A stretch of 20,936 nucleotides of DNA, from IMG/VR virus record IMGVR_UViG_3300023184_004349, positions 1 through 20,936 of that record; one strand, given 5' to 3'. Of this stretch, positions 1,799 through 5,042 are shown in pieces. Position numbers and translations under genes: made by a program. The DNA is from a virus. Position 1 is the stretch's first letter, and every line of letters begins with the position of its first letter. A model generated the notes under the pieces. That model worked only from the letters and a program-made list of their open reading frames with translations, ran no database searches and was not told the DNA's origin.

Positions 1799-1875
1799 TG
1801 GTACCCACGACCGGACTCGAACCGGTAACACGGAGATTTTAAGTCTCCTGACTCTGCCAATTGGTCTACGTGGGC
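1799..1875 (-). tRNA. tRNA-Leu(UAA), atypical: no long variable arm
   Basis: The complement folds as a cloverleaf: acceptor GCCCACG/CGTGGGT with a G1-U72 pair, D-arm GAC/GTC with GG in the loop, anticodon stem GGAGA/TCTCC around loop CTTAAAA (anticodon UAA, codon UUA), T-arm ACCGG-TTCGAGT-CCGGT, then A73 and an encoded CCA. The variable region is only five bases (GTGTT). Leucine tRNAs of bacteria normally have a long class II variable arm, so this 77-nt gene is unusual. A73 and the G1-U72 pair are as in E. coli tRNA-Leu(UAA), which supports the leucine call. Confidence 0.85.
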
Positions 1876-1880
1876 AATAT

Positions 1881-1957
1881 TGGCGATCTCAGGAGGATTC
1901 GAACCTCCGACCTGCGGATTAGAAATCCGTTGCTCTGTCCAGCTGAGCTATGAGACC
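1881..1957 (-). tRNA. tRNA-Arg(UCU)
   Basis: A canonical 77-nt tRNA. Acceptor GGTCTCA pairs with TGAGATC, D-stem GCTC/GAGC, anticodon loop TTTCTAA (anticodon UCU, reads AGA), T-arm GGAGG-TTCGAAT-CCTCC, discriminator G and encoded CCA. The A27-C43 pair of the anticodon stem is mismatched. It lies 5 nt from the tRNA-Leu gene, so the two are probably processed from one precursor. AGA is a common arginine codon in AT-rich phages, which would explain why it is kept. Confidence 0.95.
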
Positions 1958-3766: not shown

Positions 3767-3840
3767 TGGTTGCGCAGCTAGGAGTTGCACCTAGAATTGA
3801 GGATTATGAGACCGCTGTGATACTGTTTCACTACCGCGCT
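3767..3840 (-). tRNA. Atypical CAT-anticodon tRNA, initiator-like (tRNA-Met/fMet-like)
   Basis: A 74-nt tRNA-like gene with encoded CCA. Anticodon loop CTCATAA (CAU) is identical to that of E. coli initiator tRNA. The acceptor AGCGCGG/CTGCGCA has six pairs, with positions 1 and 72 (A and A) unpaired; an unpaired 1-72 is the hallmark of bacterial initiators. Departures from a normal tRNA: the D-loop (AACAGTA) lacks GG, the T-loop is TGCAACT rather than TTC..., and the anticodon stem GCGGT/TCCTC has two mismatches, so only two of the three initiator G-C pairs remain. It may be a real but divergent tRNA or one in decay. Confidence 0.6.
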
Positions 3841-4267: not shown

Positions 4268-4363
4268 CAATTTAATAGCTGGGGAAGTAGGACTCGAACC
4301 TACAACCTTGGGATTCAAAGTCCCCTGCGCCACCAATTGCGCCATTCCCCAGCTATTAAATTG
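4268..4363. repeat. Perfect 19-bp inverted repeat enclosing tRNA-Gln
   Basis: Left arm 4268-4286 and right arm 4345-4363 are exact reverse complements. The inner 7 bp are the tRNA acceptor stem; the outer 12 bp (CAATTTAATAGC and its complement) are flanking DNA. In the transcript, the tRNA leader and trailer would form one continuous 19-bp helix with the acceptor stem, pairing even the discriminator G73. The right arm also encodes the last codons and stop of the GIY-YIG gene. Confidence 0.9.
4279..4351 (-). tRNA. tRNA-Gln(UUG)
   Basis: A complete 73-nt tRNA without encoded CCA. Acceptor TGGGGAA/TTCCCCA with a U1-A72 pair and G73, as in bacterial tRNA-Gln; D-stem GCGC/GCGC with GG in the loop; anticodon loop CTTTGAA (UUG); T-arm GTAGG-TTCGAGT-CCTAC. 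The G27-A43 pair is mismatched. It lies 4 nt past the stop of the GIY-YIG gene and is followed by bases CTA instead of CCA. It differs in sequence from the broken tRNA-Gln at 5012-5042, so it is not the missing other half of that gene. Confidence 0.95.
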
Positions 4364-4982
4364 TCCTTCCTCTTATCCAACCTGTTGGAATTGGATCATT
4401 TAATTTTATTCGAGTATTAAGAACACCATTAGTAATCCACATTTGTTGGTGTTTTCTTTTGTAACGATATCCCTTTTTTAATTTACCTGTGGTAATACCA
4501 TTAATACCTTTTTTATTGTTTGAAGGTCTACTTTTTAAAGTATTACTTATCTTTTCTTTTCTTAATTGATTATTTTTATTACTTAAAATAACACGGTTTC
4601 GACCTTCATCTGTGAGATATGATTTTCCTAAACGTGATTGTCGTATTTTTTCCTTAGTTTCATTAGAATGAGTTTTACCTAAGAATGTTAAGCCGTTTAT
4701 ATCAGCACCCCCCAAACCACCTCCTATAGAAATATTATAATTATTATCACACCCGATAAAATTTAAATCAACTATTTCTTTTTCTTTTTCTCGAGCTTCT
4801 AGTAAAGTATCAAACACGTACAAAATATCTTTGTGGAAATTTTCTCTACCATATTTCTCTATGGCGTGTTTAATTAATTTGCCACTACCCATATAATCAT
4901 CATACATATTATCAGTTTTATGGATACCAATATAATATTTCTGATTTATTTTATTTGTTATCTTGTAAACTATGTAATTCAT
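4356..4982 (-). CDS. GIY-YIG homing endonuclease with NUMOD3-type motifs
   Basis: A 208-aa free-standing endonuclease of the phage GIY-YIG type. The nuclease domain covers residues 1-90: IVY at 4-6, YIG at 17-19, then YMGSGKLIKHAIEKYG. A DNA-binding part follows with a NUMOD3-like motif (GKTHSNETKEKIRQSRLGK, 102-120) and a lysine- and arginine-rich tail. Such enzymes cut a target in a related genome that lacks the gene and so spread it. The ATG at 4982 has TAGGAG 8 nt upstream, and TATAAATA 20 nt upstream, directly abutting the broken tRNA-Gln. The C-terminal codons lie in the inverted repeat around the intact tRNA-Gln. The position between a broken and an intact tRNA-Gln suggests a tRNA-targeting mobile gene. 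Base composition is lower in GC than the neighbours. Confidence 0.92.
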   Translation of the reverse strand: MNYIVYKITNKINQKYYIGIHKTDNMYDDYMGSGKLIKHAIEKYGRENFHKDILYVFDTLLEAREKEKEIVDLNFIGCDNNYNISIGGGLGGADINGLTFLGKTHSNETKEKIRQSRLGKSYLTDEGRNRVILSNKNNQLRKEKISNTLKSRPSNNKKGINGITTGKLKKGYRYKRKHQQMWITNGVLNTRIKLNDPIPTGWIRGRTI

Positions 4983-5002
4983 ATGCTATACTCCTATAGC
5001 AC

Positions 5003-5010
5003 TATTTATA
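5003..5010 (-). promoter_or_regulatory. T4-type late promoter TATAAATA for the GIY-YIG gene
   Basis: The complement reads TATAAATA, an exact match to the T4 late promoter core. It sits 20 nt before the ATG at 4982 with the ribosome site between them, and starts one base after the last tRNA-like base of the truncated tRNA-Gln. A transcript from here would also cover the intact tRNA-Gln. Confidence 0.65.
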
Positions 5011-5011
5011 T

Positions 5012-5042
5012 ATCCACAGTCCTACCATTAGACGATCTCCCA
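5012..5042 (-). pseudogene. tRNA-Gln 5' half, cut in the anticodon loop
   Basis: The complement starts TGGGAGATCGTC and continues as a typical tRNA 5' half: acceptor TGGGAGA (U1, as in tRNA-Gln), D-arm GTCT-AATGGTA-GGAC with the invariant GG, then T26 and the 5' strand of the anticodon stem GTGGA and T32. The tRNA pattern stops there. No matching 3' half (TCCAC... TCTCCCA) is found on the minus strand down to the next gene. The break coincides with the start of the GIY-YIG unit. Confidence 0.75.

Follow-up and report, generated by a model that had tools for sequence, protein, structure and literature searches.

A GIY-YIG endonuclease gene and a substitute tRNA-Gln in a broken phage tRNA-Gln gene: a probable homing element resembling cleave-and-rescue

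The window, the whole 20.9-kb viral contig that was analysed, carries a SegB-like GIY-YIG endonuclease gene and a replacement tRNA-Gln(UUG) behind the remains of a broken resident tRNA-Gln gene. We read this unit, with a probability of roughly three in four, as a selfish homing element that would act by cleave-and-rescue. On the minus strand, the order is tRNA-Gln 5' part, promoter, hairpin with the ribosome-binding site (RBS), GIY-YIG open reading frame (ORF) and complete tRNA-Gln(UUG):

5012..5042, minus strand: 5' part of the resident tRNA-Gln, TGGGAGATCGTCTAATGGTAGGACTGTGGAT, ending at T32 in the anticodon loop and identical over its first 24 nt to the intact tRNA-Gln of contig L036
5003..5010, minus strand: T4-type late promoter, TATAAATA, 1 base past the half tRNA, read from the sequence
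4984..5001, minus strand: hairpin TGCTATA-GGAG-TATAGCA, directly before the start codon, whose loop holds the RBS (-8.7 kcal/mol, z -2.3)
4356..4982, minus strand: SegB-like free-standing GIY-YIG homing endonuclease, 208 aa
4278..4351, minus strand: complete replacement tRNA-Gln(UUG) (ARAGORN, ttg; Rfam, 65.4 bits), 4 nt past the nuclease stop codon
4255..5018, minus strand: segment that the empty allele L036 does not have; the 3' part of the L036 tRNA-Gln occupies this place

ARAGORN, Rfam and the sequence place the cut tRNA-Gln, the promoter, the GIY-YIG gene and the whole tRNA-Gln where a preliminary description of this DNA had put them. The half tRNA is not a chance resemblance, because its identity with the intact tRNA-Gln of L036 scores 24, whereas 800 dinucleotide shuffles reach a maximum of 14. 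Nothing of the resident tRNA-Gln is kept past T32 in the window. The replacement has the same anticodon as the resident gene and a good tRNA score, with U1-A72 and G73 present and CCA not encoded. The cassette is flanked by a transglycosylase-like gene and an AdoMet decarboxylase-like gene. Elsewhere in the window (3770-3840, minus strand), Rfam detects a tRNA missed by ARAGORN (43.6 bits), with the anticodon loop CTCATAA.

By family, the nuclease is a SegB-like homing endonuclease. Specifically, it belongs to PHROG 314 (homing endonuclease; 1e-39), and T4 SegB matches it over the full length (3e-18, 37.7% identity); its score against Pfam GIY-YIG is sub-threshold (19.8 vs 22.6 bits). Residues Y17, G19, E67 and N83 are invariant in the nuclease alignment. 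The best PDB match of the fold predicted from an alignment that left out T4 SegB is the I-TevI catalytic domain (Foldseek probability 1.00, E 0.004); PDB sequence searches with this protein and with the second-family nuclease described below gave no matches. The gene is free-standing, with no intron family among the gathering-threshold Rfam matches in the window, and the 3' part of the cut tRNA-Gln is not retained downstream of it, either in the window or in L005, a contig from another metagenome.

Relatives were found by searching with the two neighbour genes of the cassette. Contig L036/L042 is 98.99% identical to the window over 5536 bp on one flank and 99.08% identical over 2062 bp on the other. 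The junctions of L036 lie at window 5019/5018 and 4255/4254, with 99% identity resuming at 5019 and 4254; where the window has 5018-4255, L036 carries the 3' part of an intact tRNA-Gln, TGGGAGATCGTCTAATGGTAGGACCGCAGACTTTGAATC...TCTCCCAGCCA. This tRNA-Gln, with acceptor TGGGAGA, is the only one at the locus, and L036 has neither the nuclease nor a second tRNA-Gln. Comparison of the two alleles thus indicates loss of the tRNA-Gln 3' part from the window allele, which has the nuclease and another tRNA-Gln, the exchanged tract being the cassette alone. A nuclease-free relative with one TGGGAGA tRNA-Gln had been predicted in the preliminary description, and L036, 99% identical on both sides, is such a relative. 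In the more distant L037-L040, L048 and L049, tRNA-Gln is likewise present as one intact gene, and the nuclease is absent. The arrangement that the same description had named as contrary to its reading, namely a half and a second tRNA-Gln without the nuclease, is absent from all relatives found without the nuclease.

The same unit occurs elsewhere, as had been proposed for checking. L005 has a matching cassette at the matching locus, with identity to the window of 60/60 over half and promoter, 91.5% over the nuclease and 73/74 over the new tRNA, while the flanking genes are 72-76% identical and the spacer is unalignable. The cassette is far closer than its flanks, which marks it as a transferable unit. 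The right end of the Gln cassette is seen in L010, and L005 keeps CAGCCA past the new tRNA-Gln, possibly the end of the old tRNA-Gln. On the left, the exchange point in the window lies within 27 bp, TATTGGGAGATCGTCTAATGGTAGGAC, common to the half and the intact genes, and the half tRNA may serve as the left homology arm. Matches to the junction and the new tRNA in IMG/VR are confined to Gln-cassette contigs, a search of bacterial genomes gave a single distant match, and no Gln cassette was found in 50,697 cultured-phage records at blastn sensitivity.

All Gln-cassette contigs are metagenomic, as would be expected if the arrangement were an assembly chimera, or if the half were a decayed, functionless duplicate tRNA. 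We consider this explanation hardly credible. The identical 60-bp junction recurs in L005, an independent contig whose flanks are diverged, only one tRNA-Gln is present in the empty allele, and whole nuclease clades keep the arrangement; a chimera is already refuted by L005 and L010.

The resident and the carried tRNA-Gln share 47 identical of 78 columns, a divergence so wide that neither was copied from the other. The carried gene is complete and, as first suspected, is not the other half of the cut gene. A split or intron-containing tRNA-Gln was also considered and rejected: no part is missing from the downstream gene, and pairing between its 3' half and the resident 5' half is impossible, the anticodon stem being mismatched by inspection (GTGGA in the resident 5' half, TCCCA in the downstream 3' half). 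A pre-existing second tRNA-Gln was rejected as well. In public viral contigs the new tRNA is found only with the cassette, which argues that it came with the cassette.

The pattern is not limited to glutamine. A profile survey yielded 160 distinct SegB-like units, 48 of them with a tRNA starting at most 30 nt from the stop codon, and tRNA 5' parts were sought isotype-blind (shuffle control maximum, 14 in 800). Strong halves were found for Ile (34/34, L198), Met (34/34, L194; also L193 and L128), Gln (window and L005) and Gly (L147); a further one, in L213, lacks a nearby replacement. A half, a SegB-like gene and an intact tRNA of the same isotype are combined for Gly (L147), elongator Met (L128, L193, L194) and Ile (L198); the same design is weaker but readable for initiator Met (L139, L155, L106, L118, L138) and Cys (L259), with Cys tails also in L169 and L179. 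Breakpoints lie around U33 and the anticodon, most halves ending after U33, those of Gln after 32 and those of Cys after 35. In the six units above the null maximum (window, L147, L198, L194, L193, L128), the isotypes of half and downstream tRNA agree in 6/6, with a chance product of ~1e-7, or ~1e-6 if L193 and L194, which have a common cassette, are counted once. In the GIY protein tree, half-bearing units are clustered (6 changes vs 13.8 when shuffled, 0/500); at least 4 changes are forced by starred branches, and several origins or losses are needed.

Empty alleles were also found for these units. Identity between L213 and L198 is 98.9% over 2.1 kb. A tRNA-Ile is intact in L213; in L198, the 5' part of this gene remains, followed by a nuclease and a new tRNA-Ile. 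Similarly, tRNA-Met and tRNA-Arg are intact in L112, and in L194 halves of both are present, each with a nuclease and a replacement, along with short 3' remnants of the old genes, AGTCCTACCA (Met) and GGTTCGAATCCTTCAGGGACCGCCA (Arg). The pairs window/L036, L198/L213 and L194/L112 thus each show a locus in its filled and its empty state among close relatives.

The Arg unit of L194 and one unit of L005 encode a non-GIY protein, similar to PHROG 15137. A PD...DPK motif, invariant in 15 rows, suggests that this second family is a PD-(D/E)XK nuclease; its Foldseek matches include PD-(D/E)XK nucleases, none of them significant. A UCU anticodon loop lies upstream of the second-family ORF in 45/51 units. 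Half-tRNAs above the control maximum were found in 22/51 units, and the best match is Arg(UCU) in 21 of these 22, the tRNA library having been collected before this family was fetched. The late promoter of L005 lies at the same position as that of the window, as do the promoters of most units in either nuclease family.

These counts bear on whether the unit represents ordinary SegB-type homing, in which neighbouring tRNA genes spread by co-conversion and a same-isotype tRNA is an incidental hitch-hiker, as with T4 segB. T4 and T6 segB do lie between intact tRNA genes (Tyr and Arg in T6), as do many other SegB-like genes; among 27 intact tRNA pairs with a SegB-like gene between them, just 6 are of one isotype. 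SegB homologues are reported to be enriched near tRNAs with no isotype preference (PMC13096335). Nevertheless, the adjacent tRNA matches the broken isotype in all six strict cases and in nearly all second-family halves, and the tract exchanged in the window is just the cassette. We therefore regard incidental hitch-hiking as unlikely, and a carried tRNA that replaces the broken one as the better reading.

In L005, the second-family unit has replaced two genes that are intact in the window:

L005, 6362-7375: second unit, with the non-GIY nuclease; its empty allele is window 1799-1957
Window 1881..1957, minus strand: intact tRNA-Arg(UCU), empty allele of the L005 second unit
Window 1799..1875, minus strand: intact tRNA-Leu(UAA), second gene broken and replaced by the L005 unit

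The two window genes are 5 bp apart, and the L005 unit spans from a tRNA-Arg 5' half to a tRNA-Leu 3' half. It carries a UCU-loop tRNA-like gene (33.9 bits, no normal D arm, long variable region) and a new tRNA-Leu(UAA) (56.8 bits), so that both broken genes are replaced. This double replacement, like the general agreement between carried and destroyed isotype, is left unexplained if the carried tRNA is mainly anti-defence or codon-supply cargo, for example a variant resistant to tRNA-cleaving host defences, with loss of the resident gene as a by-product. Phage tRNAs do counter such defences, and T6 SegB amplifies tRNA-Tyr against Septu (PMC13096335), but we judge the cargo explanation distinctly unlikely.

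The second family also differs in order: half-Arg, late promoter, complete Arg(UCU), nuclease. In GIY-YIG units, the tRNA begins no more than about 20 nt from the nuclease stop codon or overlaps it, as if the tRNA served nuclease expression (an RNase P cut site, an mRNA end or an insulator) and isotype identity arose by recombination between like tRNAs. A tRNA upstream of the second-family ORF does not fit such a role, and the diverged carried tRNA-Gln is no recombinational copy of the resident; we hold this explanation to be highly improbable. In contrast, the reading that an endonuclease breaks the resident tRNA-Gln and brings a substitute, put forward in the preliminary description, is supported by the empty allele L036 and by recurrence of the pattern in other isotypes and in the second family.

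Second-family nucleases also occur in cultured phages. In the T4-like Escherichia phage F25 (L368, 630-1391), the nuclease accompanies a degraded Arg-like half, GTAGAGCAGTCAACTTCT; a tRNA-Arg(UCU) that nearly equals the tRNA after segB in T4 overlaps the end of the ORF. In Acinetobacter phage Apostate (L370) and Citrobacter phage CkP1 (L371), the nuclease lies in a tRNA-Met anticodon, the halves would rejoin to a near-perfect tRNA, and there is no adjacent replacement, which makes these two exceptions to the design; the insertions gave no Rfam intron match.

The sequences directly show filled and empty alleles with their junctions, movement of the cassette across diverged backbones, and isotype-matched replacement for several tRNAs by two nuclease families. 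The cut site, the immunity of the carried tRNA, functional rescue and drive in co-infection are inferred. In a co-infecting phage with an intact tRNA-Gln gene, the probable target of the enzyme is the stretch from anticodon loop to acceptor stem, which filled alleles do not have; cleavage in the anticodon loop is suggested by where the tRNA genes are broken. Recombinational repair on element-bearing genome copies would then bring in promoter, nuclease and substitute tRNA, leaving just the 5' part of the old tRNA-Gln. The carried tRNA, with the same anticodon and a diverged sequence, would probably escape cleavage and restore tRNA-Gln to the recipient.

SegB homing proceeds through phage recombination. 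The window nuclease shares with T4 and T6 SegB the PHROG 314 family, with conservation of Y17 and G19 (required in T6 SegB), and also the immediately downstream tRNA, the late promoter, the hairpin and the association with tRNA genes. Cleavage by T4 and T6 SegB within tRNA genes has been reported (PMC13096335; PMC2988022), with a preference for the motif RAWTSGAAC (PMC13096335), which we read as the T-arm loop. We found no support for immunity by loss of this motif, since carried tRNAs do not significantly lack it (14/47 vs 345/910, p 0.28). They are modestly more diverged from the nearest same-anticodon tRNA (median 0.73 vs 0.79, p 0.002), but so are those of half-less units, and neither comparison revealed a specific escape signature.

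Unlike segB, which lies between intact tRNA genes, the window unit lies inside a broken one, and in the literature examined neither a half-tRNA of the carried isotype nor an isotype-matched replacement is described for T4 or T6 SegB. Free-standing homing endonucleases insert into genes, and group I intron endonucleases at tRNA anticodon loops. The window unit resembles these in its conserved insertion site and in homing by double-strand-break repair, but no intron or splicing is involved; the old gene is destroyed and a separate full gene replaces it. A fungal mitochondrial homing element in Allomyces atp6 reportedly carries a substitute for the gene end that it disrupts; there the substitute is the terminus of a protein gene, whereas here complete tRNA genes are carried, by two nuclease families. 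To our knowledge, cleave-and-rescue is known as an engineered gene drive. Synthetic Cleave-and-Rescue and Home-and-Rescue drives pair a nuclease that disrupts a gene with a linked, recoded functional version (PMC7951863, PMC7968924). The window unit would work alike and differs in being natural, in phage and aimed at a tRNA gene; the likeness is an analogy and not a claim of membership.

A truncated tRNA together with a homing endonuclease had no prior description in the literature searched, a weak negative with most subscription papers outside coverage. In the preliminary description, a free-standing homing gene bringing a complete substitute tRNA had been called unfamiliar. Free-standing GIY-YIG genes that spread with tRNA genes are known from T4 SegB; isotype-matched replacement of a broken tRNA gene appears to be undescribed.

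On balance, we favour a view in which natural, selfish cleave-and-rescue elements form a general class in phages. Their homing endonucleases, from two or more unrelated nuclease families and each specialised for an isotype, would break tRNA genes at the anticodon and bring a recoded tRNA of that isotype (once two, for two broken neighbours), making the recipient element-dependent. If so, natural examples across several tRNAs would mean that evolution reached the cleave-and-rescue design repeatedly. Such elements could explain the odd, redundant-looking and rapidly replaced tRNA genes of large phages and the SegB-like nucleases that accompany tRNAs; selfish elements may then be one of the forces behind tRNA turnover, beside codon usage or defence. 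The view predicts isotype-specific tRNA-gene nucleases with resistant tRNA alleles attached.

Several units depart from the design. A tRNA-Met-like half and a GIY-YIG gene in L213 (2450-3030) have no nearby replacement tRNA, possibly lost by deletion; a class-II-like half precedes tRNA-Thr in L008, and the half in L127 has no assignable isotype. Sixteen cultured SegB-like loci have no annotated half/whole pair. In related phages L055-L057 (e.g. L056, 5374-6133), another SegB-like gene (40%) directly follows an intact tRNA-Met at a nearby site; a hairpin there contains the promoter, and a second tRNA is absent. In L138 (3001-3570), the TAA stop codon of the GIY-YIG gene lies inside the anticodon loop (CTCATAA) of the initiator tRNA-Met that it overlaps.
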